Shown: positions 5,564 to 21,790 of the stretch, piece after piece | Layout: each line of letters begins with the position of its first letter | How positions within the stretch are numbered: position 1 is the first letter of the stretch | Assembly (NCBI RefSeq): GCF_020723905.1 | Contig: NZ_DYHZ01000008.1 | Coordinates: 62,001 to 126,000, forward strand | DNA length: 64,000 nt | Reading direction: 5' to 3' | Source: Anaerolinea thermophila | GTDB lineage: Bacteria > Chloroflexota > Anaerolineae > Anaerolineales > Anaerolineaceae | Program-made: the position numbers and the translations under genes | Notes under the pieces: generated by a model | Databases searched by the model: none | Told to the model about the DNA's origin: nothing | The model's input: the letters and a program-made list of their open reading frames with translations, nothing else

Positions 5564-7309
5564 ATGCAACCACTGATTACAACCGAAAAGGTCACTTTTC
5601 GTTACGCTACCGAGGGGGGGAAGACGGAGAACGTCCTTCAAGATGTCTCGCTGGCTTTTTATCCGGGTGAATTTGTTGCCATTTTAGGCGCAAACGGCTC
5701 TGGCAAGACCACACTGGCGCGACATTTGAACGCCTTGCTGCTTCCGATTTCAGGGAAAGTATTGGTACGGGGACTGGACACGCGGGATCGTTTTAATTTA
5801 AAACGCATCCGTCAAACCGTTGGCATGGTTTTTCAGCACCCTGAAGATCAGATTGTTGCCACAACTGTTGAAGAAGATATTGCCTTTGGTCCGGAAAACC
5901 TCGGGCTTTCCACCACAGAAATTCGCCGTCGGGTGGATGAAGCCATTGTAGCGGTCGGGCTGGAAGCGCACCGTAAACGCTCACCTCATTTGCTTTCTGC
6001 CGGGCAAATGCAGCGTCTGGCGCTGGCTGGTGTGCTGGCAATGCGACCCGATGTGGTCATCTTTGATGAAGCCACCACCATGCTGGATCCGGCGGGTCGG
6101 CGCATGGCAATGGAACTGATGCAGAGCCTGCGTGCCGATGGAGTTTCTGTCCTGTTTGTCACCCATGATATGGAAGAAGCCGCGCTGGCAGATCGAGTCA
6201 TCGTCCTCAATCGCGGCAAGGTGGTTTTTGAAGGGACACCGGGAGAGATGTTCCGTCATCCCCGGTTGGATGATTGGGGTCTGACGTTACCGCCTGCCAT
6301 GGCGCTGGCTCGAGAATTGCGTATCTTTTTTCCAGAGTTACCCGATGTGCTCACAACTGCAGAATTGCTCCAGCATTTACCGGAGAACAGGCAGGGGGTT
6401 CACTTTCCTGTTGAAGACGAAACTGTCCTAACCCGTCCGCGAGATATTCAAATTGCGGTGGAACATCTGGCGCATACCTATTTGAAAGGGACGCCGCTGG
6501 CTCATCTGGCGTTAGTGGATGTGAATGTGCAGGTGGCTAAGGGGTCGACCCATGCGTTTATTGGCGTGACCGGTTCGGGAAAATCCACGGTCTTACAGCA
6601 CTTAAATGGGATCTTAAGACCTCAGCAAGGCAAGGTTCGCGTAGCCGAATTCGACTTGACCAACCCTGAAATCGAGACTCGCGCGGTGACCCGTGTGGCG
6701 GGTCTGGTGATGCAAAACCCTGAGATGCAATTCTTTGAACAATTCGTGGGAGATGAAATTGCTTTCGGTCCCAGACAGATGGGCGTACGTGAAAACCTGG
6801 CAGAAAGAGTGCGCTGGGCAATGGAAGTCGTGGGGTTGGATTTTGAGGCTTTCAAAGATCGTCTGGTGTTTACCCTCAGCGGGGGAGAAAAGCGCAAAGT
6901 GGCGCTGGCATCGGTGCTGGCGAATCGTCCTGAAATTCTTCTGCTGGATGAGCCTACCGCAGGACTGGACCCGGTTTCCCACCAGCAAATTCTGGAGAAA
7001 TTACAGCGCCTTTCCCGGGAAGATGGCATGACCCTGGTGGTTTCTTCCCATCGTATGGAGGATGTTGCCGCTCTGTCACAGGAAATTACCGCATTTCGGA
7101 AAGGCAGGGATGTCTTGCATGGTACAGCCTCCGAAGTGTTTACCCGGCACGAACACCTGGTCGAGATTGGTCTGGATGCCCCGGTTGCTGCACAGGTAGC
7201 CAGTCGTCTCCGAGAACTGGGGTGGAATCTGCCTCATGGGGTGGTTGCTCCGGAACAACTCATAAATGCCCTCAAACGGCTTCAAGGGGGGGGATATGAG
7301 CCGGTTTGA
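5564..7309 (+). CDS. ecfA: ECF transporter fused ATPase (A and A' in one chain)
   Basis: Supplies ATP hydrolysis for an energy-coupling-factor vitamin or metal importer. 581 residues contain two complete ABC ATPase domains. The first has Walker A GANGSGKTT at ~42-50, signature LSAGQ and Walker B with catalytic Glu (VIFDEATT). The second has GVTGSGKST, signature LSGGE and LLLDEPTAGLD. Most ECF systems encode the two ATPases as separate genes of ~280 residues, so this is a fusion. ecfT overlaps its 3' end by 14 bases. The upstream promoter leaves almost no 5' leader. Confidence 0.92.
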   Translation: MQPLITTEKVTFRYATEGGKTENVLQDVSLAFYPGEFVAILGANGSGKTTLARHLNALLLPISGKVLVRGLDTRDRFNLKRIRQTVGMVFQHPEDQIVATTVEEDIAFGPENLGLSTTEIRRRVDEAIVAVGLEAHRKRSPHLLSAGQMQRLALAGVLAMRPDVVIFDEATTMLDPAGRRMAMELMQSLRADGVSVLFVTHDMEEAALADRVIVLNRGKVVFEGTPGEMFRHPRLDDWGLTLPPAMALARELRIFFPELPDVLTTAELLQHLPENRQGVHFPVEDETVLTRPRDIQIAVEHLAHTYLKGTPLAHLALVDVNVQVAKGSTHAFIGVTGSGKSTVLQHLNGILRPQQGKVRVAEFDLTNPEIETRAVTRVAGLVMQNPEMQFFEQFVGDEIAFGPRQMGVRENLAERVRWAMEVVGLDFEAFKDRLVFTLSGGEKRKVALASVLANRPEILLLDEPTAGLDPVSHQQILEKLQRLSREDGMTLVVSSHRMEDVAALSQEITAFRKGRDVLHGTASEVFTRHEHLVEIGLDAPVAAQVASRLRELGWNLPHGVVAPEQLINALKRLQGGGYEPV

Positions 7310-8117
7310 ATTTTTACGCAGTGTCCCCATCGGACAGTATTTACCGGTGGACTCCCCCCTGCATCGTCTGGACCCACGCGCCCGTCTGTTGGGATATGCC
7401 TGGCTGGTGCTGGCGCTCACCTTCAGTTTTCAGTTCCGCGGGCTATTGTTGGGAATTGGCGCGGGTTTGCTTGGGTTATGGTTAGGGCGCATTCCTTTTC
7501 GTTTTGCCCTGCGGGCAATGGCATCGCCTTTACCGTTGATTTTTATCCTGGCAATATTGCAGGTATTTCTCAACACCAGCCCACTGGATTCACCGGTTCT
7601 GGTTCCTCTGGGGCGTTTTTCTATTACTGAGGCAGATTTACTGGCGGGTTTTCTTCTTTTGTTGCGGTTTACCGGTTTGATCCTGATTCTGTCTTTATTT
7701 TCATTCACTCTTTCCACCAGCGAAATGTCTCATGGGCTGAATGCGTTACTGAAACCCTTTGACCAGTTGGGAATCCCGGCGCAGGATCTGGGGATGATGG
7801 TCCAGGTGACCCTGCGCTTTTTACCTCTGCTGGCGCAAACGGCTGAACGCATCGCCAAGGCGCAGGTCTCGCGGGGGGCGGATTGGGAAGGCAAACGGGG
7901 AGGACTGCTTCAGCGGGTACGTCAGGTGCTTCCGCTCATTGTGCCGCTTTTTTTAGCCAGTTTGCATCGCGCGGAGAACATGGCACTGGCGATGGACGCG
8001 CGCGCCTATGGATGTTCACGGGAGCGAGGTGCTTTTTACGCCTACCGCTTCACCGGCAAAGATCTTCTTGCGCTCGGTTTGATGGTCGTTGTTGGGGTGT
8101 TGATTTTGCGTTTTTAA
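7296..8117 (+). CDS. ecfT: ECF transporter transmembrane protein EcfT
   Basis: Membrane scaffold of an ECF importer that couples the ATPases to the substrate-binding S component. 273 residues from the ATG at 7296, which lies inside the end of ecfA just after a G-rich ribosome site; an earlier in-frame codon at 7266 has no such support. Several hydrophobic helices are followed by the two short coupling-helix motifs typical of EcfT (SRG in QVSRGAD and ARA in MDARAYG). Co-transcribed with the fused ATPase. Confidence 0.92.
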   Translation: MSRFEFLRSVPIGQYLPVDSPLHRLDPRARLLGYAWLVLALTFSFQFRGLLLGIGAGLLGLWLGRIPFRFALRAMASPLPLIFILAILQVFLNTSPLDSPVLVPLGRFSITEADLLAGFLLLLRFTGLILILSLFSFTLSTSEMSHGLNALLKPFDQLGIPAQDLGMMVQVTLRFLPLLAQTAERIAKAQVSRGADWEGKRGGLLQRVRQVLPLIVPLFLASLHRAENMALAMDARAYGCSRERGAFYAYRFTGKDLLALGLMVVVGVLILRF

Positions 8118-8184: not shown

Positions 8185-8742
8185 TTACAGGTTGGCTCCC
8201 TGTTTCCGTCCAATACGGATGCGCAACCAGGCTCCGACTACCACCAGTACAATCAACGCTGAGCCGACGGCTTCGGGCAAACCGTTGGCAACTACGATGG
8301 GAAGCAACTGGGTGGGGGAGAAGTTCGCCACCATGGCAATCATGGTTAAGACCAGAATGGTATTGGTCAGGCTTCCCAGTGCTCCTGCCACAATCAAACC
8401 TGCTGCAGGAATGTTTTTCAAAGATTTCCACACCAGCCATGCTACTGGACCGATGAACAGGCGGGGCAGAACGGAGATGAGGGGATTGGTAAAGAGGGCA
8501 TCTGCCGGTCCACCCGGTGCCACCGCGGCTTGAATCATGCTGGATACCCCAAAAATCAAGCCAATCACCAGTCCAACCACTGGACCTTCCAGAATTGCTC
8601 CGATAATCACCGGAACATGCATGATGGTCAGGGATGCGCCGGAAAACCAGGTAATGAATCCCAGGCGGGTAACTCCCAGGAAAATCGCAATAGCACTCAT
8701 GATTCCGGCAATGACAATTTTTCGGGTTCTTTCTTCGGGCAT
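8185..8742 (-). CDS. ECF transporter S component, substrate unknown
   Basis: 185-residue membrane protein with about six hydrophobic segments, a short charged N-terminus and the MHVPVIIGAILEGP region characteristic of the general ECF S-component family (ECF_trnsprt, which includes pantothenate, riboflavin and folate binders). It gives substrate specificity to the A-A'-T module encoded convergently next to it. The ATG at 8742 has a GGAG site. No riboswitch is obvious in the ~130 bases upstream, so the vitamin cannot be named. Its own transcript allows it to be regulated separately from the shared module, which is usual for group II ECF systems. Confidence 0.85.
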   Translation of the reverse strand: MPEERTRKIVIAGIMSAIAIFLGVTRLGFITWFSGASLTIMHVPVIIGAILEGPVVGLVIGLIFGVSSMIQAAVAPGGPADALFTNPLISVLPRLFIGPVAWLVWKSLKNIPAAGLIVAGALGSLTNTILVLTMIAMVANFSPTQLLPIVVANGLPEAVGSALIVLVVVGAWLRIRIGRKQGANL

Positions 8743-8871: not shown

Positions 8872-9552
8872 ATGAGCAAACCAAAAACCATAGCCATTGA
8901 TGGTCCCGCCGCATCGGGAAAATCTACCATTGCCGAAAAACTGGCAAAGGAATTGGGGTATTTATTCTTTGATACCGGGGTCATGTATCGTGCGGTCACG
9001 CTTGCAGCGCTTCGGCGTTTGGGAAACGTGCAGGATGAGCAGGCGGTCACCCGTCTTGCGGAGAGTGTATGGATTGATGTTCGTCCTCCGAGCCAGTCTG
9101 ATGGCAGAAAAGCCGATGTGCTTCTTGATGGAGAGGATGTAACCTGGGCGATTCGTTCCCCTGAAGTGGATGCCAATGTATCGGTTGTCTCGGCTTATCC
9201 GGGGGTGCGCGCCGCCATGACGCAACAACAGCGGCGCATCGGTGAACGTGGAGAGGTGGTCATGGTGGGCAGAGATATTGGCACAGTAGTTCTTCCGGAT
9301 GCCGAGTTGAAAATTTATCTGGATGCCAGTGTGGAAGAACGCGCCCGCCGTCGCTATCTGGAAAACAAGAATCGGGGTATGGACGCCGATTACGAGCAAA
9401 TTCTGGAAAATCTCAAAAAACGTGATGAGATTGACTCAACTCGAGAAGTTGCTCCTCTACGGATAGCCGAGGATGCCCATGTGGTTTTGACGGATGGACT
9501 GAGTATTGAAGAAGTCATGCAACAGGTGCGGAAGTTAGCGCACATAGAATAA
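8872..9552 (+). CDS. cmk: Cytidylate kinase
   Basis: Phosphorylates CMP and dCMP to the diphosphates with ATP. 226 residues, the normal length for bacterial Cmk. The P-loop GPAASGKST is at residues ~10-18, followed by the DTGVMYRAVT and MVGRDIGTVV motifs that bind the nucleotide and the LID-region arginines (VEERARRRY). The ATG at 8872 is chosen because the family begins a few residues before the P-loop; a longer open frame to 8530 runs antisense over the S-component gene. First gene of a run with the histidine kinase (7-base gap). Confidence 0.95.
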   Translation: MSKPKTIAIDGPAASGKSTIAEKLAKELGYLFFDTGVMYRAVTLAALRRLGNVQDEQAVTRLAESVWIDVRPPSQSDGRKADVLLDGEDVTWAIRSPEVDANVSVVSAYPGVRAAMTQQQRRIGERGEVVMVGRDIGTVVLPDAELKIYLDASVEERARRRYLENKNRGMDADYEQILENLKKRDEIDSTREVAPLRIAEDAHVVLTDGLSIEEVMQQVRKLAHIE

Positions 9553-9559
9553 GCATCCC

Positions 9560-11593
9560 ATGGAAAAGCCTTCTGTTCAGGACTTACAGAGTCGGTTTCT
9601 CAACTATTTGAAATCTCGGGATGTTCTGGAGAACCTGCTGAATACGTTTCAGGGTGTGGTGGTGGTTCTCGATCCAGACTTTCACATCATATTTTTCAAC
9701 CGTGCTGCTGAGGAGGTTACTGGCTACACTCAGGCGAAAGTTCAGGGGATGAATTTAGCCGAATTGTTCCTTCCTTTTGAAGAGAAACAGGCGGTTAAGA
9801 ATATTTTTGAAAACTTAAGAAATCATCGTGCCCCCAATCGCTATCGCAACCCCTGGTTGACTCGATGGGGAGAATATCGTTATTTTGAATGGTCTAACAC
9901 CGTTATTCAGGATGAGTCGGGCAATGTGGCTTTCATCATTGGGATGGGCATGGATGTCACTGACAAAGAGGAGATTTTACGAGCCAATCAGACCATGCGG
10001 GCACGGTTTGAGCGGGTTTTCCGGGCAAATCCCATGGGGCTAGCCCTGGTGTCTGGTGAGTCCTTGACCATCAGTGATTGCAACGAGCGTTTTGCGTCCA
10101 TGCTGGAGATTCCCCGTTCCCAACTGATTGGTAAGGACCTGGTTTCCCTGGGAATTCTGGAAACTCCTTATCGTTTCCAGGAAATTGTTTACCGCCATGC
10201 CCGCTTTGGCAATTCGATGACCGAAGAGCGCCCCATTAAAACCGCTTCGGGGAGCACTTTCCATGGGCGAATTTCTCTGGAGCCTATGGACTTAATGGAA
10301 GAGCCAACTCTGGTGCTTACCCTGCAGGATATCACCACTTACGTACAGATCGAATCACGGTTGAAACAGGTAAGCGCTGACCTGGAACGAAAGATCAAAG
10401 AATCCTCACAGGCATATGAGACGGTGCGCCGGGAATTACAGACAGAAGTAGGACGGCGCAGGGCGCTGGAATTATCCTCCCGCCGCTTGCTGGATATCAT
10501 CTGGGAAGCAGGCGAAGCCATTGCCATCATGGATTCAAAAGGATGGGTGGTTTACCTGAACAAGAGCGCCCGCGCTTTGTTAGGTATGGATGAATACACC
10601 CCCATTGCCCAACACCAGAGTATGCTGTACGAGAAGTATAAGAATTTTCCAGTGGTCGTAGAACAGGTGATACCCGCGCTCCTTCAGGAAGGGATGTGGC
10701 GGGGAGAAATGGAGTGGAATTCTGGTTCTTCTGAGGTTCTGTACCTTTCCGTAACTATTCTTGCGCACCGGGATGAACAAGGTAAGGTGCAAAATTTTTC
10801 CCTGATTGCCCATGACATTACAGAGGAAAAGCGTGTTACCGAAGCCATCAAACGGGAATTCCAGCGTGAAAAGGAAGACGCAACCTTGCGTTCATATCTT
10901 TTCTCGGCAACGTCTCATCAATTTCGTACCCCGCTCAGTACCATTCTTTCCTCTACCGAATTACTGGAGACGTATGGTCAGAAATGGGGCTGGGAGAAGT
11001 CGCTTCAGCATCTTCAGCGTATCAAGACTGCTGCTCAGCAGATGAATACCCTGCTGGGAGATATTCTCAAAGTTCTGCGGCTGGAAGCCGAACAGGATCC
11101 TCTGCACATTCAACCGGTAGACGTGCGCAAACTCCTTCGAGAATGTGCCGAGGTGGTAAAAAATGCCCTGGATCCCAACCGGAAAATTTTCCTGGAATGT
11201 GAGGCAGATCATCCCGTTCTTTCCACAGATCCAGACCTGCTCTGGCAGGTGCTGGAGAATCTCCTCACCAACGCAATCAAGTATTCTCCATCGGATACAT
11301 GGATTTATGCGTATATCCGTTCAGCAGATTCGGGTATCCAGATTGAAATCCGCGATGAAGGCATGGGGGTACCTCAGGATGAACTTCCTTTGCTTTTTGA
11401 ACCGTTTTATCGTGCCAGTAACACCAGTGGAATATCCGGAAGCGGTCTGGGGTTGATGATAGTGCGGAAAGCACTGGAACGCCTCCGGGGAACGATAGAT
11501 TTTTCCAGTGAACTACATCACGGTTCGGTGGTTACCGTGACGTTGACAGATTTGAGCCATTTCCAGGAAGCGAAGGGAGAACCGGGAAATTGA
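9560..11593 (+). CDS. Cytoplasmic PAS-domain sensor histidine kinase
   Basis: 677 residues, no membrane segment or signal peptide. Three PAS-type sensor regions lie at about 20-135, 145-265 and 305-430, with a short coiled coil before the third. A HisKA domain follows with phospho-acceptor His453 in SHQFRTPL, then an HATPase domain with N-box (NLLTNAIKYSP), G1 (DEGMGVP) and G2 (GSGLGLMIV). The residue after the histidine is Gln rather than the usual Glu/Asp. The next gene, a receiver protein, overlaps by four bases, so they are the likely signalling pair. The signal is unknown; the PAS domains suggest an intracellular small molecule or redox cue. Confidence 0.92.
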   Translation: MEKPSVQDLQSRFLNYLKSRDVLENLLNTFQGVVVVLDPDFHIIFFNRAAEEVTGYTQAKVQGMNLAELFLPFEEKQAVKNIFENLRNHRAPNRYRNPWLTRWGEYRYFEWSNTVIQDESGNVAFIIGMGMDVTDKEEILRANQTMRARFERVFRANPMGLALVSGESLTISDCNERFASMLEIPRSQLIGKDLVSLGILETPYRFQEIVYRHARFGNSMTEERPIKTASGSTFHGRISLEPMDLMEEPTLVLTLQDITTYVQIESRLKQVSADLERKIKESSQAYETVRRELQTEVGRRRALELSSRRLLDIIWEAGEAIAIMDSKGWVVYLNKSARALLGMDEYTPIAQHQSMLYEKYKNFPVVVEQVIPALLQEGMWRGEMEWNSGSSEVLYLSVTILAHRDEQGKVQNFSLIAHDITEEKRVTEAIKREFQREKEDATLRSYLFSATSHQFRTPLSTILSSTELLETYGQKWGWEKSLQHLQRIKTAAQQMNTLLGDILKVLRLEAEQDPLHIQPVDVRKLLRECAEVVKNALDPNRKIFLECEADHPVLSTDPDLLWQVLENLLTNAIKYSPSDTWIYAYIRSADSGIQIEIRDEGMGVPQDELPLLFEPFYRASNTSGISGSGLGLMIVRKALERLRGTIDFSSELHHGSVVTVTLTDLSHFQEAKGEPGN

Positions 11594-12681
11594 CACGGAT
11601 TCTGGTTGTGGAAGATGAGGAACTGGTTCGCGCCAACATCGTAGACCTGCTGGAAGCCGAGGGTTACGAAACACAGGAAGCCAGCGATGGGGAGCAAGCC
11701 CTTCATTTGCTCTGGCAGAATCCGCCAGATCTGATTTTGTGCGATGTGCGTATGCCAAAACTGGATGGGTTTGCCTTGCTTTCCCGTCTCAGTCAGGAGC
11801 CGCGTCTGCGGGTGATTCCATTTATCTTTCTCACGGCTCGTGTGGAGCGGGAGGATCAGCGTCTTGGGATGAACCTTGGAGCGGATGATTACATCACCAA
11901 GCCTTTTAGCCGCAAGGACTTACTCACTGCAGTGCAGCGCCGACTGGAAAAACGCCGTCATATCAGCGAAACGGCTGTTCATCATCACGCTCATACCGTT
12001 GAACAAATTCTTAATGATTTACCGGATGACCTGATGACTCCCCTTCAGCGTTTACTGGCGTTTTCCCAGTCTATGATGAATATGACGGAGTTGCCCGCCC
12101 GGATTGGAGAGATACGAGACCTGGGACGCCAGTTGCATAAAACCACCCGTCAGTTGCTCAACCTGGTCCGCCAGTACGTTCTTTTGAACCGTTTGCTTCA
12201 ACTGGGAAAAGATCTGGAGCAGGTTCAAGCCCTCCGGATGCTGGTTACTCTCACTGCCCATGAGGTGATTCAGGATGTCGCCCTTTCATTTGCAGAGCAG
12301 GGAGGGCGAAAGAATGATCTTGAGATAGAACTGGAACCGGTCTCTCTGGCAATGGGTGAAGAATGGCTGGTGAATCTGCTGGAATGCGGACTGGATTGGG
12401 CGCTTTCTCACTCCCTGTATGGAGAAAGAATTATCCTGACCGGAAAGGTACTTTCTGCCAGCAGTTATGAATTACGCCTGTCCTATTCGCCCATCCATCC
12501 ACTGGTTGAGGAAATTTATCCTTCCCCGATTCCAGAGAAAAAGCCCTTAACCTTTCGCTTGATGGAAGGAATTCTTGAATTGCATGATGGCAGTTTGGGT
12601 TTTACCTCTAATGCTGCCAGATCTGAATTTCGTTTTTCCCTCAAAAGCCAGAATGGCGAAAGGAGACTTTTGCATGTGTGA
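11590..12681 (+). CDS. Receiver domain fused to a degenerate histidine-kinase-like module
   Basis: 363 residues starting with TTG at 11590, whose TTGA overlaps the stop of the kinase gene; a GGGA site precedes it. Residues 1-125 form a receiver domain with the acidic pair EDE, phospho-acceptor Asp52 (LCDVRMP), Thr in FLTAR and Lys in ITKPF. The rest is not a DNA-binding domain. Residues ~135-200 look like a HisKA hairpin in which the His-containing box is replaced by DDLMTPLQ. Residues ~250-360 resemble an ATPase fold in which the N-box is replaced by LLECGLDWALS. It is therefore probably a non-catalytic output or adaptor. The 3' end overlaps the dipeptidase start by 8 bases. Confidence 0.85.
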   Translation: MTRILVVEDEELVRANIVDLLEAEGYETQEASDGEQALHLLWQNPPDLILCDVRMPKLDGFALLSRLSQEPRLRVIPFIFLTARVEREDQRLGMNLGADDYITKPFSRKDLLTAVQRRLEKRRHISETAVHHHAHTVEQILNDLPDDLMTPLQRLLAFSQSMMNMTELPARIGEIRDLGRQLHKTTRQLLNLVRQYVLLNRLLQLGKDLEQVQALRMLVTLTAHEVIQDVALSFAEQGGRKNDLEIELEPVSLAMGEEWLVNLLECGLDWALSHSLYGERIILTGKVLSASSYELRLSYSPIHPLVEEIYPSPIPEKKPLTFRLMEGILELHDGSLGFTSNAARSEFRFSLKSQNGERRLLHV

Positions 12682-14005
12682 CACCTTTGTGGTCTTGCCT
12701 GAACGTACTGGCGGCTGGGGCACCCTTCTGGGAAAAAACTCTGACCGCGAACCCAATGAAGCCCATCAGGTGGTGTACATCCCGGCACAGGATTTTCCGG
12801 AAGGAGCAACCGTGCACTGCACCTATCGGGAAATTCCGCAGGTCCGGCATACGTTTGCCGTGCTCCTGATGAAGCCCTTCTGGATCTGGGGAGCGGAGAT
12901 GGGGGTGAATGAACATGGGGTGGCGATTGGCAATGAAGCCGTATTTACCCGCATTCCTTACCAGAAAGATGCCCGATTAACAGGAATGGATTTGCTTCGT
13001 CTGGCTTTGGAGCGTTCTGCGTCGGCGGAAGAAGCCTTAAATGTGATTGTGGAATTGCTGGAACAGTATGGACAGGGTGGAAATTGTGGATTGACGCACG
13101 GCTTTTACTATCACAACAGTTACCTGATTGCTGATCCCCGATCGGCATGGGTGCTGGAAACGGCGGGAGAGCACTGGGTAGCGGAGAAGGTTCAAGGAAT
13201 TCGCACCATTTCTAATGCATTGACGATTGGGGAAACGTGGGACCGGATTTCTCCTCAGGCTATTTCTTTTGCCCGCCAGCAGGGATGGTTGCCACAAGGA
13301 AAAGCATTCTCCTTTTCCGGGGTATATTCGGACTTTTTATACACTACCTTTGGCGCGGGACGTTTCCGTCAGTCCTGTACAACACGGTTATTGCTGGAGT
13401 CTCAACAACCGGTGGACGTGCATCGGGCTTTTCAAGTGTTGAGGGCGCATGGTACTGGAGAAAATGAAGAAAACTGGCGTCCAGATGTGGCTGTTCACGG
13501 TGCAGATGTATGCATGCATGCGGGGTGGGGTCCCATTCGTGTCAGTCAGACAACGGGCTCGGCAGTATTTGAATTGCGCGAAGATGGGGTGCGGGTGTGG
13601 GTAACGGCTACTGCCGCACCCTGTACTTCCATCTACAAACCGCTCTGGATGGACACATCTATCCCCTGGCAATCTGAGCCGGAACCGACGGCGGTTTATA
13701 ACCCTGCCTGTCTCTGGTGGCGGCATGAGCGTTTGCATCGCCAGACTCTGGAGAACTATCCTCAGCGTATTCAGTTGTATCGTGCAGAACGGGATGCTTT
13801 AGAGGCACGTTTCTTGCAAGGAATACCGGCAATGCAGGCATCGGTTGCCGAGCGAAGCCGCTATGCTCAGACCTGCTTTGAGATGGCTGAACAGGCTGAA
13901 GCCCACTGGCTGGAATTGATCCGTGGGGCAGGCAGGGAGAATCGGCGTTTTTATACACGCTGGGCATGGAAGAAATTCAATCAACAGGCAAAAATGCCCG
14001 CCTGA
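12674..14005 (+). CDS. C69-family dipeptidase (secernin-like Ntn hydrolase)
   Basis: 443 residues. The start at 12674 is fixed by a strong AAGGAG site and by Cys2 (MCDTF), which in this N-terminal nucleophile family becomes the catalytic residue after removal of Met. The following GKNSDREPNE and GVNEHGVAIGNEA motifs are typical of peptidase family C69 and the related secernins. The known activity is hydrolysis of dipeptides, but some members have other amidohydrolase or even non-enzymatic roles. It overlaps the end of the receiver gene, so it belongs to the cmk-kinase-receiver transcript; a functional link to that signalling pair is not evident. Confidence 0.88.
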   Translation: MCDTFVVLPERTGGWGTLLGKNSDREPNEAHQVVYIPAQDFPEGATVHCTYREIPQVRHTFAVLLMKPFWIWGAEMGVNEHGVAIGNEAVFTRIPYQKDARLTGMDLLRLALERSASAEEALNVIVELLEQYGQGGNCGLTHGFYYHNSYLIADPRSAWVLETAGEHWVAEKVQGIRTISNALTIGETWDRISPQAISFARQQGWLPQGKAFSFSGVYSDFLYTTFGAGRFRQSCTTRLLLESQQPVDVHRAFQVLRAHGTGENEENWRPDVAVHGADVCMHAGWGPIRVSQTTGSAVFELREDGVRVWVTATAAPCTSIYKPLWMDTSIPWQSEPEPTAVYNPACLWWRHERLHRQTLENYPQRIQLYRAERDALEARFLQGIPAMQASVAERSRYAQTCFEMAEQAEAHWLELIRGAGRENRRFYTRWAWKKFNQQAKMPA

Positions 14006-14030
14006 ACAGGGCTGGACAACAGATAAATGC

Positions 14031-14036
14031 TATAAT
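14031..14036 (+). promoter_or_regulatory. -10 box of the large histidine kinase gene
   Basis: A perfect TATAAT about 20 bases before the ATG at 14057, leaving a predicted leader near 14 nt. The -35 region is not convincing. Confidence 0.5.
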
Positions 14037-14056
14037 CGAGCCAGAACCTGAGTGCT

Positions 14057-17000
14057 ATGGAATTTATACCCGGTTTCGTTGTAACCCAACCCCAGATGAT
14101 TCTCCCTAACCATGTTGTTGGGTGGTTAGGCTGGTTGCTCTTTGTGGGATTGATTCTACTGGGATTGAAAGTTACCTGGGAAAACCCCACGGGTGTCTTA
14201 AGACGGCGCTGGTGGTTCTGGGTGCTTTTGTTTGTTCTGGTACCGGTGACCACCTTAACTATGGCAATCCGGTTGCCGGGGCAGAGCATGCCTTTGCCCG
14301 GTGTTCCGCAGTCTATCCCGCCGATGATGTTGATCTTCAGCGCTTTCCCGTGGGTTCTGGCGGCGGGAATCCTGGGTCCATTTCCTGCTGTGGTCACCGG
14401 GGCTTTTACCGGGCTGATGCTGGGACTTTTCCACACCAACAGCCTCTTTGCACCCCTGGAAATAGCCGGGTTGGCTCTGGCGTATAGTTTTGCAATTCGG
14501 CAACGTTACCGCACGCAGTTTTTCCATGTGTTACGTCATCCTCTGGGGGCGGCATTGGTGCTGGCTGTGGCTTATGCGCCGGTGTACATGCTTTCCATGC
14601 TGTTTGCTGCCAATGGTTCGCTGGCGGTGCGTCTGGACTATGCTATTACGCAGACCTGGTGGATTATGCTTGCCCGGGCAGGGGAGATGCTCCTCGCCAG
14701 TGTGGTGGGCGAAATCCTGTACCTGACCCGCCCACTCTGGTGGGGGTGTATGGGGCCACTCCTGCCCACACCCATTGAGAGCAGTTTAAAGACTCGCTTT
14801 TACGCGGGTACTATTCCTCTCGTGGCTGTGCTCTTTATCACTCTCACTGTGGGTGATTGGCTGGTTGCTGGCAACGCGGCTCGTCAACTGGTGCAGGATC
14901 AACTGGCAAACACCGCCCAAATGGCGGCGGAAAGCATTCCCTACTTTCTGGAGGCTGGACAGAGCCTGATCCTTACGCTGGCGACTCCGGATCTGTTAAA
15001 TTTTCCCCCTGATGCGCTGGAAGGGCAACTGTCCACACGTTTGCGTTCGGTGCCATTTTTCCGGGAGATGGTTTTCTTAAACCAGGAAGGCAAAATCCTG
15101 GCTGCCTATCCTCAAAACAACATCCAGGTTGTGAGTTTAAGCGAAGAAGAACTGGCTGGCGTCGATCTGGCCTTGAAGGGTGTGCCTTCGCAAATGTACA
15201 CCGTTCCGGCAGTAAATGGAGAATCGTCAGCGCAAATTTCTTTCCTTGCGGGTGTAAAGGATAGTGATGGCATGGTCAGGGGTGTCTTGCTGGGGCGCAC
15301 CGATTTAATTTCCAATCCCTTCACTCAGGCGACTGTCCATGCCATTCAACAAATCCAGGAAAAATTCGGCGGCACAGGATTGTTCCTGGATGAATACGGG
15401 ACGGTGATCTATCCGGTGGGAGAGGATGGCACGGCGGAATATACCGGGACAATTCCTCAAAAGCCTTTTGAGGAAGCCCTCTTGCCCGATGGACGGCGGG
15501 GTTACATCTACGCCCGCCAGACCATTGGCAGACCGTGGAGCATTATCCTTTTTGTGCCTGCGGAATACACTCAACAACTGGCGCTCCGCATTGCCATTCC
15601 TTTACTGCTTATCCTCATTCTGGTCTCTGCACTGGCATTTGTCCTGCTTCGTCTTGGCTTGACTCCGGTTGTCTATTTGCTGCAGGAACTGGCAGGTCAA
15701 GCCAATCTGATTGCCCGGGGCGATCTGGATCGTCCATTACCCATTCGTGGAGAGGATGAGATTGCTCGACTGGGGTTTGCCTTCGAGCAAATGCGGAAGA
15801 GCCTCAAAGCCCGTCTGGATGAACTGAACCGCCTGCTGGTGGTTTCTCAGGGTGTTGCTCAGAACCTTGAGATTCACAAAGCCGTTCAACCCGTCCTGGA
15901 GGCGGCTTTGCAAGACGGCGCCTGTCTGGCGCGGGTTGTTCTGATTCGTGATGTGGTTCTGGAAGCCCCGGAAAGTAACACCGTTTCTTTTGGGGAAGGC
16001 AGGCTCTCGCTGGGTTTTGCTTATCTGGATGAGCCTCTGTTTGATTTTGCTGAACAGCATGGCATGGCAAGTTTTCCCAATCCAGCCCGAATGCGGCGTT
16101 TGACCATGCCTTCTGGAAAAGCCCTGCCCGGCGCGCTGGCGGTTGTTGCCATCCGTTATGAAGGGGAGTATTTTGGGGTACTCTGGGTGGCATACGAACA
16201 ACCACACACTTTTTCGGACGAAGAAATGCGTTTCCTCTCCACGCTGGCGGGACAGGTGGCAGTAGCCGCCGCCAGCGCTCGTCTGTATGCCATGGCAGAA
16301 ATCGGACGTCAGCGCCTGGAAGCCGTTTTAGCCTCTTCGCCGGAACCGGTGCTGGTTGTGGATGAAAAAGAGCATTTGTTGTTGCTCAACCAGGCGGCAT
16401 TGCAGGTGCCCGGGTTGTTGCTCATGGCGGAACCCAACAAACCGATTCACGAGGTGGTGGCACAACCCGATTTGGTGGCGCTGTTGAAGTCTCCGCTGGA
16501 TAAACGGGTGCTTTCCCGCGAAATTACCTTCCCGAATAACCGGGTGTATTACGCCAGCGTATCAGCCGTGATGGCTGAAGGCAAGCCGGTTGGGCGCATT
16601 TGCACCTTGAGAGACATTACCCACTTCAAAGAACTGGATCAGATCAAGTCTGATTTCGTCGCTACTGTGAGCCATGGCCTCCGCTCGCCACTGACCCTGA
16701 TGAAAGGGTACACGACCATGCTCCAGATGGTCGGTGAACTCAACGATCAGCAAAAAACCTACGTACAGAAAATTATTAGCAGTGTCGAGACCATGTCTCG
16801 ACTGGTCAATAATCTGCTGGATCTGGGGCGTATTGAAGCCGGCATTGGTTTGCAGATTGAAAAAGTCATGATTACTCAAGTGGTGGATGAAGTCCTCAAT
16901 GCTCTTCAACCACAGGCAACCCAGAAACAGATTGAACTGGAAAAAGAGTGGACTTCGAATACCCCCCTGGCTGTTGTGGAAGGTGACCGGGCTCTGCTTC

Positions 17001-17347
17001 AGCAAGCCCTGTACAATCTGGTAGAAAATGCCATCAAATATACGCCAGCAGGAGGGAAGGTGAGCGTTCGCCTGGAAGAACGCCATGAAAGCCTGGTAGT
17101 GCGAGTCATTGATACTGGGATTGGGATTGCCCCCCTCGATTTGCCGCGTCTCTTCGAAAAATTTTACCGCAGTGGGCGTCGGGAGTCCTATCAACAACGC
17201 GGTTCCGGTTTAGGACTGGCAATTGTAAAATCCATTGTCGATCGCCATCATGGGCGTGTGTGGGTGGAAAGCCAGTTGGGCAAGGGCAGTACCTTCTCGA
17301 TGGAACTTCCCTTCCGACAACCGGTTCCTCAACCGGTTAGGGGGTAA
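14057..17347 (+). CDS. Large membrane sensor histidine kinase (TM - extracytoplasmic sensor - HAMP - GAF - PAS - HisKA - HATPase)
   Basis: 1096 residues. The first ~240 residues hold about six hydrophobic helices (MASE-like). A further helix, an extracytoplasmic region of ~230 residues (~280-510) and another helix lead to a HAMP linker (~530-590). A GAF-like region (~600-745), a PAS domain (~755-865), a HisKA domain with His873 (SHGLRSPL) and an ATPase domain (ENAIKYTP, DTGIGIAP, GSGLGLAIV) follow. The residue after the phospho-histidine is Gly, not Glu/Asp. No response regulator is adjacent downstream; the receiver-pseudokinase at 11590 is the nearest candidate. The stimulus is unknown. Confidence 0.9.
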   Translation: MEFIPGFVVTQPQMILPNHVVGWLGWLLFVGLILLGLKVTWENPTGVLRRRWWFWVLLFVLVPVTTLTMAIRLPGQSMPLPGVPQSIPPMMLIFSAFPWVLAAGILGPFPAVVTGAFTGLMLGLFHTNSLFAPLEIAGLALAYSFAIRQRYRTQFFHVLRHPLGAALVLAVAYAPVYMLSMLFAANGSLAVRLDYAITQTWWIMLARAGEMLLASVVGEILYLTRPLWWGCMGPLLPTPIESSLKTRFYAGTIPLVAVLFITLTVGDWLVAGNAARQLVQDQLANTAQMAAESIPYFLEAGQSLILTLATPDLLNFPPDALEGQLSTRLRSVPFFREMVFLNQEGKILAAYPQNNIQVVSLSEEELAGVDLALKGVPSQMYTVPAVNGESSAQISFLAGVKDSDGMVRGVLLGRTDLISNPFTQATVHAIQQIQEKFGGTGLFLDEYGTVIYPVGEDGTAEYTGTIPQKPFEEALLPDGRRGYIYARQTIGRPWSIILFVPAEYTQQLALRIAIPLLLILILVSALAFVLLRLGLTPVVYLLQELAGQANLIARGDLDRPLPIRGEDEIARLGFAFEQMRKSLKARLDELNRLLVVSQGVAQNLEIHKAVQPVLEAALQDGACLARVVLIRDVVLEAPESNTVSFGEGRLSLGFAYLDEPLFDFAEQHGMASFPNPARMRRLTMPSGKALPGALAVVAIRYEGEYFGVLWVAYEQPHTFSDEEMRFLSTLAGQVAVAAASARLYAMAEIGRQRLEAVLASSPEPVLVVDEKEHLLLLNQAALQVPGLLLMAEPNKPIHEVVAQPDLVALLKSPLDKRVLSREITFPNNRVYYASVSAVMAEGKPVGRICTLRDITHFKELDQIKSDFVATVSHGLRSPLTLMKGYTTMLQMVGELNDQQKTYVQKIISSVETMSRLVNNLLDLGRIEAGIGLQIEKVMITQVVDEVLNALQPQATQKQIELEKEWTSNTPLAVVEGDRALLQQALYNLVENAIKYTPAGGKVSVRLEERHESLVVRVIDTGIGIAPLDLPRLFEKFYRSGRRESYQQRGSGLGLAIVKSIVDRHHGRVWVESQLGKGSTFSMELPFRQPVPQPVRG

Positions 17348-17368
17348 TTTTTGTGGTAAAATTACCCC
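17341..17368 (+). terminator. Hairpin overlapping the kinase stop codon
   Basis: An 11-bp perfect stem (17341-17351 with 17358-17368) contains the TAA stop codon in its first arm. No T-run follows, so it is either a weak or factor-assisted terminator or an mRNA end-stabilising hairpin. Confidence 0.5.
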
Positions 17369-17414
17369 TCAGGAGGGGGATCTCAAAAAACCGGATACAA
17401 AATCTTAAAAAAAG

Positions 17415-17442
17415 TTGCAATTGAGAAGAAGCGTGATATAAT
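17415..17442 (+). promoter_or_regulatory. rpoC promoter
   Basis: TTGCAA (17415-17420), 16 bases, TATAAT (17437-17442). The predicted leader is about 118 nt. rpoC therefore appears to have its own promoter rather than depending on an upstream rpoB. Confidence 0.7.
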
Positions 17443-17485
17443 TGCAGATTGCATGCTTTCTATGGTTTTGCGTTTTTTGATCGTT

Positions 17486-17523
17486 GAGCCAGCGCCTTTA
17501 CTTGATTTTAAGGCGCGTGGCTC
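17486..17523 (+). promoter_or_regulatory. Attenuator-like hairpin in the rpoC leader
   Basis: Stem 17486-17498 with 17510-17523 (12 pairs, one small bulge), GC-rich and followed by TGTTTTG. It lies between the rpoC promoter and the AGGAGG ribosome site (17554-17559), the position of a transcription attenuator. No other promoter is visible between it and the gene. Confidence 0.55.
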
Positions 17524-17566
17524 TGTTTTGTAGTGTTCCATCAGGTTTCGAACAGGAGGCTTTTTA

Positions 17567-20500
17567 GTGGAAACCAAGGGTCTCACCGCACTGCGTATTA
17601 GTCTGGCTTCGCCGGAACACATTCGTTCGTGGTCATATGGCGAAGTGTTGAAGCCGGAAACGATTAACTACCGGCGTTTGCGCCCTGAAAAAGATGGGCT
17701 GTTTTGTGAAGCCATTTTTGGTCCCACGCGTGACTATCAGTGTTATTGTGGGAAATACAAGAATCCCCGCTACAAAGGCATCGTTTGCGATAAATGCGGT
17801 GTAGAAGTTACCCGTTCCTCTGTCCGTCGGGAACGGATGGGGCACATCGAACTGGCAACGCCGGTGGCGCATATCTGGTACACTCGCCGCATCCCTTCCT
17901 ACTTGGGGCTTCTGCTGGATATCTCCCGCCGCAATCTGGACCGGGTTCTGTATTTTGCGCAGTACGTGGTCACTCACGTGGATGAGGATGCCCGTCAGAA
18001 AGCCCTGAAGCGCCTTGAGGATGAAATCAGCGTTTCAGAACGGGAACAAGCCAACCAGATCAACGAAAAAATCAAAGAGATCAAACTGGATCGCGATCGC
18101 AAACTTAACGAACTGAGCCAGCAAAAGAGCGAGTTGCAAGCCCGTGCGGATGAGCAAATCGCCATGCGGCTTGAACCGGTAATCAAAGAAGGACAGCGTC
18201 TAGAAGCCTCCCTCCAGGAACGCATGGGGCAGACGGTTTCCAAGCCCATTGTGTTTGAAGCCGCTGGAATCACAATTGTGGATGCGGGACAGACTGTCAC
18301 ATCGGCGCACCTTTCCATGATTCAACGCACCGTAAAACAGCGCCTGGATGAACTGGAAAGCGAAGTGCGCGATCAACTGCGCCGTGACCAGGAACAGATC
18401 GCTATGGAAATGGAGCGCATTCGCGCGGAAGCCAACGAAGCCATGGAAGCCCTGCGAAACCAGTTGGAAGATCAGGCGGTAGTCTCTCAGAATCAAAATT
18501 CTCGTCTGCGCGATGAGTTGATTGAACTGCGTCCCTTCACCTTCCTTACAGAAAGCCGCTACCGCGAACTGAAACAACGCTGGGGGCAGGTCTTCCGTGC
18601 GGATATGGGTGCAGAAGCCTTCTATGATATTCTCCGCCGTCTGGACCTGGATAAACTGGCGGAAGATTTATGGCACGAGGTACGCACCTCCAAGAGCAAG
18701 CAAAAGCGCAAGAAAGCCACCATTCGCCTGAAAGTGGTGGAAGCCTTCCGCCGATCGGGTAACCGTCCCGAATGGATGATTCTGACAGTTCTGCCTGTCA
18801 TTCCGCCTGATCTGCGCCCAATGGTGCAACTGGATGGCGGTCGCTTTGCCACCTCCGACTTGAATGACCTTTACCGCCGCGTGATCAACCGCAATAACCG
18901 CCTGAAGCGCCTGCTGGAACTCGGCGCGCCCGATGTGATTGTGCGCAACGAAAAACGCATGCTGCAGGAAGCGGTTGATTCCCTGATTGACAATTCTCAG
19001 CGCGGCAAAGCCCTTTCCCGCCGCGGACGCCGCGAACTCAAATCGCTCAGCGATATGTTGAAGGGCAAGAAAGGACGCTTCCGCCGCAACCTGTTAGGAA
19101 AGCGCGTGGACTACTCCGGTCGCTCGGTGATTGTAGTGGGTCCCAAACTGAAACTGCATCAGTGCGGCTTGCCCAAGACCATGGCGCTGGAACTCTACCG
19201 CCCCTTCGTGATTGCAAAACTGGTGGCACACAACTATGCCGCCAATGTGAAAGGCGCCCGTCGCTTTATCGAGCGCAATCGTCCCGAGGTGTGGGAAGTA
19301 CTGGAAGAAGCCATCAAAGAGCGCCCGGTGTTGCTCAACCGTGCGCCGACCCTGCACCGTTTGGGTATCCAGGCTTTTGAACCGGTGCTGATTGAAGGAA
19401 GCGCTATTCAACTGCATCCGCTGGTGACCACAGCGTTCAACGCGGACTTTGATGGCGACCAGATGGCAGTACACGTGCCGCTGTCAGAAAAAGCCGTTTG
19501 GGAAGCCCGCCACCTTATGCTGGCTTCCAAGAACCTGCTCAAACCCGCCGATGGAGAGCCCATCATCAGCCCGTCTAAAGACATGGTTCTGGGTGTGTAC
19601 TACCTGACCATGGATGATGGCTTGACCAATCACAAGGGTGAGGGACGCTACTTCGCCGACATGGATGAAGTGGAAATGGCTTACCAGTTAGGTCAGGTTG
19701 AGGTGCATACGCACATCCACCTGCGCACCCAGACCTGGTACGAAGAGTACGAAAAGAAAGATCGCCGCTTGCCCAAACCGGAAAAGCGCATCATCAAGAC
19801 CACTGTAGGACGGGTGCTCTTCAACCGCATTCTGCCTGAAGAAGTACGCTTCCGCAATATCGTTTTGGATAAAGGCGGTGTGAAAGACCTGATTGCTGAT
19901 GTGCTGGAAGTGTGCGGTCAGGAAAAGACCACCCTTGTGGCGGATGAGATTAAGGATATTGGTTTCGAGTATGCCATGAAGTCTGGCGCAACCATTGCGG
20001 TCTCGGATATCAGCATCCCCGAAGAGAAGAATGTTATTCTCGCAAAAGCCCAGGCAGAGGTGGATCAGGTTCAACGGGCGTATCGCCGTGGCTTGCTTAC
20101 GGAACAGGAACGCAACGAACGCATTATCGAAATCTGGCAGCAGACGACCAAGGTTGTTGCCGATACGGTCAAGCGCAACATGGACCCCAATGGCAACCTG
20201 TCCACCATGGCACTTTCCGGCGCCACCAAAGGTGGTTTTGGTCCCATTGCTCAGCTGGCGGGTATGCGCGGTTTGATGGCTGACCCGGCAGGACGCATCA
20301 TTCGCCTGCCGATTACCTCCAACTTCCGCGAAGGCTTGACTACCCTGGAATACTTCATCTCCACGCACGGAGCGCGCAAAGGTCTGGCAGATACTGCTCT
20401 GCGTACTGCCGATGCGGGCTACCTGACCCGTCGTCTGGTGGATGTTGCCCAGGATATCATCATCAACGAAATTGATTGCGGCACCAGAGAAGGCATTTTC

Positions 20501-21790
20501 ATCCGTAAAGCCGATGATGTGGCTGGACAGTCTTTCAAGGAACGTCTGTTTGGGCGGTTGACCGCTGAGCGTGTTATTGATCCGCGCACCGGTGAAATTC
20601 TGGCAGAGCGCGATCAGATGCTCGATCATGAACTGTGCCGCCGAATTGTTGCCGCAGGGGTTGATGAGGTCAAAGTGCGCTCGCCCATGACCTGTGAACT
20701 GGTGCATGGCATTTGTGCCAAATGTTATGGGATGGACCTCGGGCGTGGTACCATGGTGGAACTGGGCGCAGCGGTGGGTATTGTTGCCGCTCAGTCTATT
20801 GGCGAGCCGGGTACGCAGTTGACCCTGCGCACCTTCCATACCGGTGGTGTGGCGGCTGGCGGTGATATTACTACCGGTCTCCCCCGCGTGGAAGAACTCT
20901 TTGAAGCCCGCCGTACTCCCAAAGGCGAAGCCATTGTCTCCGAAATCTCCGGCACGGTACGCATCCTGCAGTCCGATCGGTACTCTGATCAACGGCTGGT
21001 GCGCGTCGAGCGCAGTGAACTGGTCAGCGATGAGTACGAAATTCCTGAAGGATGGCAGGTGGTGGTCAAGGATGAAGGCACCGTTTCTCTGGGCGATCCT
21101 GTTGCCGTTCTTGGAGAAGCCAGCATTACCGCTCAACATGCCGGACGGGTTCGCATTGAAGAAAACCGTGTGATTGTGGCTTACGAACAGCGCGAAAGCG
21201 AGGAATACGAAATTCCCAGCACGGCGCGCATTGTTGTGAAGGACGGCGAGCACATCGAAGCAGGCACCCCGCTTACCGAGGGTTCGCTCAACCCGCACAT
21301 GATCCTCAAGATCAAAGGTCGCGAAGCCTGCCAGATGTATCTGCTGACCGAAATTCAGAAGGTGTACCGCTCTCAAGGGCAGAACATCAATGACAAGCAC
21401 TTTGAGGTCATCATTCGCAAGATGATGGGCAAGGTTCAGGTCATTCGCCCCGGCGACACCAACTACCTGCCTTCGGATTATGTGGACCGCCTTGAGATTC
21501 GTAAGGTCAACGAAGAACTGATCGCCATGGGCAAACAACCTGCCCGCTTTGCTGAAGTCCTGCTGGGCGTCACCAAAGCCTCGCTGAACACGGATTCGTT
21601 CCTCTCGGCTTCGTCCTTCCAGCACACCATTAAGGTTCTGGCTGGTGCCGCCATTGCAGGTATGAAGGACAACCTGTACGGTTTGAAGGAAAACGTCATC
21701 ATCGGTAAACTCATTCCGGCAGGCACAGGATTTGTCCACGGGCGTTTTGCCCCCAAAGAGGAAAAAGCCGAAGCACCCTCGCAGGATTAA
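17567..21790 (+). CDS. rpoC: RNA polymerase subunit beta'
   Basis: 1407 residues starting with GTG, 7 bases after a perfect AGGAGG. The N-terminal zinc ribbon has Cys59, Cys61, Cys74 and Cys77. The catalytic Mg-binding loop NADFDGD is at residues 625-631 and the second half includes the expected bridge-helix/trigger-loop regions. Between residues ~140 and ~322 there is a highly charged, coiled-coil-like insertion of about 180 residues that is absent from enzymes such as that of Bacillus. The gene stands alone: no rpoB or ribosomal protein gene is upstream. The leader carries a hairpin that could attenuate transcription, and a strong terminator follows. Confidence 0.97.

Follow-up and report, generated by a model that had tools for sequence, protein, structure and literature searches.

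What does a response regulator do when the half that should carry its output is a histidine kinase without the residues of kinase chemistry? The question is raised by a gene in a 64,000-nucleotide stretch of DNA from Anaerolinea thermophila (assembly GCF_020723905.1, contig NZ_DYHZ01000008.1, positions 62,001 to 126,000 of the forward strand), hereafter the window. The gene, delimited with the help of Pfam and orthologues, lies at 11590..12681 on the plus strand, as do all its parts located below; it has a TTG start and encodes 363 amino acids. Its start overlaps by 4 nt the stop of a gene for a PAS histidine kinase (PAS-HK; 9560..11593, plus strand), in line with the tight overlap noted in an earlier, sequence-only reading of the window. 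We are inclined to think that the protein is a receiver (REC)-controlled histidine kinase (HK) that has lost its kinase chemistry and has been kept as a phosphorylation-switched scaffold, neither an enzyme nor a gene regulator. The basis for this view lies in the sequence: an intact receiver, the loss of the His and ATP-site residues, kinase ancestry traced through intact and half-decayed orthologues, and an operon shared with an intact PAS-HK.

A receiver joined to a degenerate kinase core

The receiver (residues 1-120, 11590..11949) gave the only Pfam match above cut-off in the protein, Response_reg (E 1.2e-30, residues 4-116). The sequence-only reading had credited it with all phosphorylation residues, and E8, D9, D52, T82, Y101 and K104 are indeed in place. 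In an alignment of 71 REC-kinase proteins, the phosphoacceptor Asp52 (11743..11745) and K104 are both present in 71/71, D9 in 70/71, and the T82 column holds T in 67, S in 3 and A in 1. By VIA-align the receiver matches RR468 (4ja2) with Z 23.2 over 121 residues. A search of its own genome with the whole protein gave no second receiver match inside the window.

Residues from about 121 to 353 are a degenerate histidine-kinase core. In the alignment the phosphoacceptor column is occupied by Asp146 (12025..12027, in DDLMTPLQ) and the N-box Asn column by Trp270 (12397..12399); the G1 DxGxG region reads YSPIHP and the G2 GxG region PLT, with a shortened lid region separating the two. The earlier claims of Asp-Asp in place of His in a HisKA-like helix, and of a missing N-box Asn and no clear G boxes, thus hold. 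The Pfam search at max_evalue 10 matched neither HisKA nor HATPase_c, it being understood that the HMMER filters discard most matches above about 0.1 despite that setting. A RhoGAP match (E 0.064), far below its cut-off, was rejected as chance. Pfam likewise detected no DNA-binding output domain and, with Response_reg alone above cut-off, no PAS input domains of the DivL type; none of the 25 NCBIfam matches listed extends beyond residue 145, and they fall far below their cut-offs (PhoB, 102.6 vs 296.2 bits). The absence of a DNA-binding domain by Pfam and the predicted kinase fold agree with the earlier opinion that the protein is not a transcription factor.

The full-length AlphaFold2 model, built on a 36-row alignment of the window protein and related-locus proteins (pLDDT 89.2), comprises the receiver, a helix at 108-165, another at 172-207 and a CA fold. 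Receiver helix 5 is predicted to continue into the signalling helix alphaS (residues 108-141, 11911..12012, within the helix 108-165) and on into DHp helix 1. The DHp-like helical hairpin without a phosphoacceptor His (residues 142-207, 12013..12210) is placed by the models and their DivL and HK853 matches, and the CA/HATPase-like domain without ATP-site motifs (residues 218-353, 12241..12648) by the models and hhalign. The six best PDB chains found by Foldseek with the full-length model belong to LvrB (8vc9, E 2.3e-18), followed by DivL (4q20_B). Superposed on LvrB over its whole chain, the model fits poorly (rmsd 19-20, TM about 0.3, identity 17-19%), which we take as different domain placement. 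Since the VIA-align list for the full model was filled by receivers, the kinase part was also predicted alone (pLDDT 87.0). DivL comes first among its matches (VIA-align Z 19.3 over 216 residues at rmsd 4.3; Foldseek E 1.4e-11), and HK853 entries follow closely, at VIA-align Z up to 18.0. Instead of an unrelated output fold, the outcome that the sequence-only reading had named as refuting it, both models show a DHp/CA fold, predicted from an alignment rich in intact kinases.

Graded decay and the constraint on the two halves

How did such a protein arise? The C-terminal 241 residues, searched as a single sequence against 147 family-level genomes, found the gene in 10, the window's included, without stops inside the matches; the weakest E was 1.1e-5, so that copies of greater divergence may have escaped detection. 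When 400 genomes of the order were searched with a profile, nine of the 10 loci came up at E<=1e-136, the next locus standing at 2.5e-76. In four orthologues, all from genus g3, the H-box (HELLTPL), the N-box Asn and the DxGxG and GLGL motifs are preserved. The other six, the window's among them, have lost the His (D in the window and L025, G in L019, E in L023, I in L026 and L027). Two of these (L023, L025) keep the N-box Asn, which is lost in the other four; by genome, G003 and G059 have lost the His and kept the N and G1 motifs, and the window, G053, G004 and G005 have lost both His and N-box Asn. The Pfam scores broadly follow this gradation. The HATPase_c cut-off is reached by all four g3 members and also by L023, L025 and L027, that of HisKA by no more than three of the g3 members (L021 reaches 26.5 vs 26.9 bits); L026 and L019 stay below both cut-offs and the window protein matches neither. 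The HisKA score was discarded as a marker of decay: L021, with its His, and L023, without it, both fall 0.4 bits short, so the members cannot be sorted by this score on its own. When the kinase halves of all ten members, of which four are intact, were combined in a profile (A2), hhalign aligned it to the CA domain of the L020 partner HK with a probability of 98.7 (E 2.5e-16).

Kinase ancestry is established through the intact and half-decayed orthologues and the predicted fold; single-sequence Pfam is insufficient. The combination is not a chance one, because the receiver and the kinase-like half are syntenic in nine other genomes and grade into intact members. The protein is a pseudokinase descendant of REC-controlled histidine kinases, and it is not itself filed as one, because the His and ATP motifs were looked for and are missing. 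That it has some cryptic activity, with a non-canonical residue phosphorylated or another nucleotide bound, appears most improbable. L023 and L025, with their N and G1 motifs, may still bind ATP, but the window protein is without N, G1 and G2 and has Trp at the N-box position, and the variety of residues at the His site listed above speaks against a substitute phosphoacceptor. The phosphatase motif that follows the His site in histidine kinases is E/DxxT. It was considered as a retained function and rejected as a general explanation: D147xxT150 is found in the window and L023, is lost in L019, L025 and L027, and is partial in L026.

The two halves have evolved under different constraint. Mean pairwise identity (%) among 34 active relatives from the wider family treated below is 53.8 for the receiver and 38.3 for the kinase part (561 pairs); among the six degenerate members it is 53.7 and 21.8 (15 pairs). 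Within genus g1, to which the window and three other members belong, identity is 56-65% for the receiver and 17-27% for the kinase part, compared with 39-47% for the partner HK core and 57-65% for the large HK of the same operon; the corresponding values for the receiver, kinase part and large HK in genus g3 are 92-97%, 71-82% and 81-87%. By this contrast between receiver and kinase part, the receiver, and not catalysis, is under selection in the degenerate members.

The kinase half has nevertheless kept its frame. It is full-length in 6/6 degenerate members (221-238 aligned residues vs 239 in two g3 members). In the window protein 53/60 hydrophobic core columns are still hydrophobic and 15/86 polar columns have become so; in the degenerate members 51-57 of 58-63 core columns remain hydrophobic. 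The distance from Lys104 to the His site is 42 residues in 58/71 proteins, all 10 operon members included. The phosphoacceptor column holds His in 34/34 canonical relatives, which were defined by possession of the motif, and in 0/6 degenerate operon members; Asn is present in 34/34 at the position of Trp270. All six degenerate members keep P145, L152, Y196, L202, R240, D243, E265, L268, A271 and G334. The signature R240-x-x-D243 (12307..12318) is thus complete in 6/6, its two residues occurring in 32/34 and 33/34 canonical relatives, respectively. With the receiver conserved, and the kinase part diverged yet retaining core, length and spacing, a REC-gated kinase has turned into a REC-gated pseudokinase.

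These data also bear on whether the receiver may simply draw phosphate off one of the operon kinases (PAS-HK, large HK), with the C-terminal half as ballast. A constrained receiver beside a fast-evolving kinase half is what such a phosphate sink would leave behind, but a pure sink could freely shed the 240 residues, and the full length, hydrophobic core and fixed spacing in 6/6 degenerate members make this explanation improbable.

The operon and the candidate partners

Around the other nine genes the order is cmk, PAS-HK, pseudokinase gene, C69-type peptidase, kinase of about 1100 aa, rpoC. The exceptions are G053, which lacks the peptidase and whose contig ends in the large kinase, G008, whose contig begins at the PAS-HK, and G059 (L025), where both PAS-HK and peptidase are missing. 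The window's PAS-HK, the candidate partner, has 677 aa and intact catalytic motifs (Pfam PAS, HisKA 1e-10, HATPase_c 3e-26). Downstream, the 3' end of the pseudokinase gene overlaps by 8 nt the C69-type peptidase gene (12674..14005, plus strand; Peptidase_C69 E 1.7e-9), a neighbour in most operon loci. A second operon kinase of 1096 aa (14057..17347, plus strand), with Cache, HAMP, GAF, HisKA and HATPase_c and no receiver, is an alternative partner.

An adjacent PAS-HK stands at 9/10 loci, the window included, which answers the call of the sequence-only reading for the same pair in other genomes. At these nine loci the two genes overlap by up to 11 nt or stand up to 20 nt apart, and H, N, G1 and G2 of the partner HK are intact in 9/9 aligned members, again with the window. 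Among the 135 genomes in which cmk was matched, 40 further cmk regions were hand-picked; L158 could not be judged, being too short. In the 39 judged, the pseudokinase gene was found in none (0/39), and the PAS-HK was the best match of no open reading frame (ORF), which suggests that the HK and the receiver protein are mostly gained or lost together. The G059 genome (92% complete) gave no PAS-HK match at E<=1e-40, compared with 1.5e-141 in G004 and 6.5e-51 in G011.

Is the whole module, then, under relaxed constraint and on its way out? Patchy presence (10/147 family genomes, 0/39 other cmk regions), the missing PAS-HK in G059 and the absence of the module from four g3 genomes (G007, G009, G010, G012) would fit. 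Against this, the window's receiver is 59-61% identical to those of the other three g1 members, compared with 39-43% for the partner HK core, the match is free of stops in all 10 genomes, and the close or overlapping spacing to the HK is kept in 9/9 pairs. We therefore regard a dying gene as very unlikely.

The steady company of the PAS-HK invites another explanation, in which the DHp regions of the pseudokinase and of the PAS-HK join in a mixed dimer, and the state of the receiver tunes the activity or the phosphatase balance of the PAS-HK. Both the pairing at 9/10 loci with its close spacing and the 39 cmk regions that lack the pseudokinase gene and have no ORF with the PAS-HK as best match speak for it. 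RetS and GacS reportedly form a kinase heterodimer. Native heterodimers of the kinases ChrS and HrrS are known (PMC9491836), and the response-regulator-like protein Osp binds the transmitter domain of the kinase CckA and thereby inhibits it (PMC9430884). However, G059 retains the pseudokinase without an adjacent HK or a genomic match to one at the threshold given above, the truncated pseudokinase itself gave no significant heterodimer signal in the ChrS study (PMC9491836), and LvrB, the nearest relative with a solved structure, is a homodimer (PMC13269768). The DHp of the four g1 members has a mean identity of 22%, against 39-47% for the partner HK core, a gap above what a shared interface would lead one to expect. 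A mixed dimer thus seems unlikely. The sequence-only reading had offered this and a phosphorylation-dependent adaptor as its two options, and the adaptor comes out better supported, given the G059 locus and the homodimeric LvrB; its pseudokinase, live receiver and lack of a DNA-binding output are retained, and the mixed dimer with the HK is not favoured.

For the switched scaffold that we prefer, the following course may be envisaged. The PAS-HK, or in G059 perhaps the large HK, would phosphorylate Asp52. By analogy with LvrB, the dimer of receivers and the coiled coil of alphaS and DHp would change their arrangement upon phosphorylation. This would uncover or mask a surface for binding on the dead DHp/CA body, instead of freeing a CA domain to phosphorylate a His, and the body would hold or release a protein partner, which may be a response regulator or either operon kinase.

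Several points weigh against this proposal. The homodimer and the LvrB-like switch are put forward by analogy, and the partner, the direction, the type of dimer and phosphotransfer to Asp52 are what we infer. The kinase half is less conserved than the receiver (71-82% against 92-97%) even in the intact g3 proteins, and in its fast divergence (17-27% within a genus) no constant partner surface is visible. The residues kept in the degenerate members (P145, R-x-x-D and fold residues) mark no new function, because they are common to the intact relatives. Intact kinases dominate the alignments behind the models, which therefore show a compatible fold, not an independently demonstrated one.

Some further features of these regions were observed. 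The order cmk, C69-type peptidase, kinase of about 1100 aa, rpoC (window 8872-9552 and 12674-21790; L138-L177) recurs in many of the 49 other regions examined, sometimes without the peptidase, and the orphan kinase beside rpoC has Cache, HAMP, GAF, HisKA and HATPase_c without a receiver. G036 and G037 have a kinase-like ORF of about 460 aa directly after cmk, whose best match, a weak one (1e-21, 6e-11), is the large HK; neither genome has a PAS-HK match at E<=1e-40. Two g3 genomes that miss the HK/receiver pair carry a 356-aa ORF between the large HK and rpoC (L154:4677-5747 in G009; L156:4733-5803 in G007). The partner HKs of G003, G005 and G004 are extended at the N-terminus by a region of about 150 residues that is absent in the window and matches no Pfam family (L023:10076-10525, L026:4261-4710, L027:10140-10589). 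The idea that it is a pseudo-receiver, a reciprocal degeneracy, was dropped, as Pfam detected no receiver and the hhalign probability against the receiver profile was 0.3. The HK of L019 has a weak OKR_DC_1_N match (E 0.01), below cut-off. Upstream of cmk the window holds genes that look like those of an ECF-type transporter (5564-8117 and 8185-8742 (-)), named by reading without a search, with a double ATPase, a membrane component and, on the other strand, a possible substrate-binding component; in most orthologous operons this place is taken by large ORFs of other kinds.

The wider family and known systems

Is the loss confined to this operon? When GTDB genomes were scanned with the profile of the orthologues, the best 80 of 580 relatives were considered and 38 full-length proteins taken. 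These have a receiver, an LPHE-type H-box region and a CA domain, mostly in 363-400 aa, and come from Cyanobacteria, Bacteroidota, Kapaibacteria, Ignavibacteria, Chloroflexota and Verrucomicrobiota. His and Asn are kept in 34; the His is lost in L064 (D), L074 (Q), L085 (Q) and L095 (P), with Asp52 kept. The four lie at L064:6983-8086, L074:7864-8955, L085:4215-5396 and L095:734-2161, in genomes of an Acaryochloridaceae, a Bacteroidales, a Verrucomicrobia and a Thermoflexus. Four distant REC-HK proteins, all with His (L062_14949, L062_3986, L067_5049, L080_1924), stand outside the 38 and the tree but inside the 71-row alignment. Among the best-scoring 30 loci of a class-level sample, His is present in 29/29 relatives besides the window's copy and a g3 orthologue; this sample leans to intact kinases, because its loci score best for a profile made mostly of intact kinases.

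In a 67-row tree, made by a quick method and with 23/64 inner branches weak, the His site switches between kept and lost on at least 5 occasions. The large-HK tree joins the four g1 genomes in one clade (SH-aLRT 99); on it, the kept or lost His of the operon members takes one change, and the presence or absence of the gene four. Since one change suffices there, repeated loss of the His inside the operon group is not proven, and in the wider family it would rest on the weaker tree. The neighbours of the His-less relatives are mixed: an HK upstream of L085, an HK overlapping downstream of L095, a receiver gene upstream of L074 and no HK within 250 nt of L064. An HK core lies directly upstream of 11/33 intact relatives outside the operon, and of 12 among all 37 rows, four of which are His-less; an association between loss of the His and HK adjacency was not claimed.

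A broader suggestion, which we hold tentatively and with some doubt, is that there is a recurrent class of response regulators whose output is a dead histidine kinase. Such REC-gated pseudokinases would have arisen several times from REC-controlled kinases and would use an LvrB-type change of shape without phosphotransfer, so that the phosphate from a kinase is read as a binding event on another signalling protein. In the window protein nature has separated the mechanical switching of REC-controlled histidine kinases from phosphotransfer by loss of the latter. One operon slot spans intact members (four g3 genomes), His-less members and members without His and Asn, so the order of decay and the remaining selection become directly testable. 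A warning follows for annotation: proteins recorded merely as response regulators may hide pseudokinase outputs invisible to Pfam. In the literature searched we met no account of a receiver joined to a kinase core that lacks the His, which is no proof of its absence in print.

Among the systems compared, the LPHE-type REC-HK proteins share the architecture, the mostly 42-residue spacing, P145 and R-x-x-D, with 31-38% identity over matches of about 200 residues or more; they differ in that 34/38 of the full-length ones have His and Asn, and the window protein neither. ExsG of Agrobacterium also joins a receiver to a kinase half without a DNA-binding domain, and phosphorylation of its receiver inhibits the kinase half, which is an active HWE kinase in a hexamer (PMC3899027). 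PhcR of Ralstonia has the same composition, and phcR shares an operon with the HK gene phcS (PMC8578825); the excerpts of both papers make no mention of a loss of catalytic residues.

LvrB of Leptospira is the prototype of the REC-controlled histidine kinase. Its receiver is phosphorylated by the upstream HK LvrA, upon which the alphaS coiled coil forms and the CA domain is freed (PMC13269768). The best full-length PDB match to the window protein, it shares with it the order REC-alphaS-DHp-CA, a similar length (376-379 residues in the 8vc9 chains), a receiver continuous with the DHp helix and an upstream partner HK, here the PAS-HK. However, His161 and the ATP site of LvrB are functional, and LvrC is its substrate (PMC13269768), whereas the window protein has neither the His nor the ATP-site motifs; the words pseudokinase, degenerate and lack have 0 occurrences in the LvrB paper. 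DivL of Caulobacter supplies the other half of the comparison. Its inactive kinase fold serves as a binding module in a pathway controlling another kinase (PMC4211667). Like the window protein, whose kinase part it matches best (4q20), DivL has a histidine-kinase fold without the phosphoacceptor His; it differs in having PAS domains and a Tyr at that site and in sensing a separate receiver, DivK~P (PMC4211667), whereas here the receiver is fused to the pseudokinase itself.

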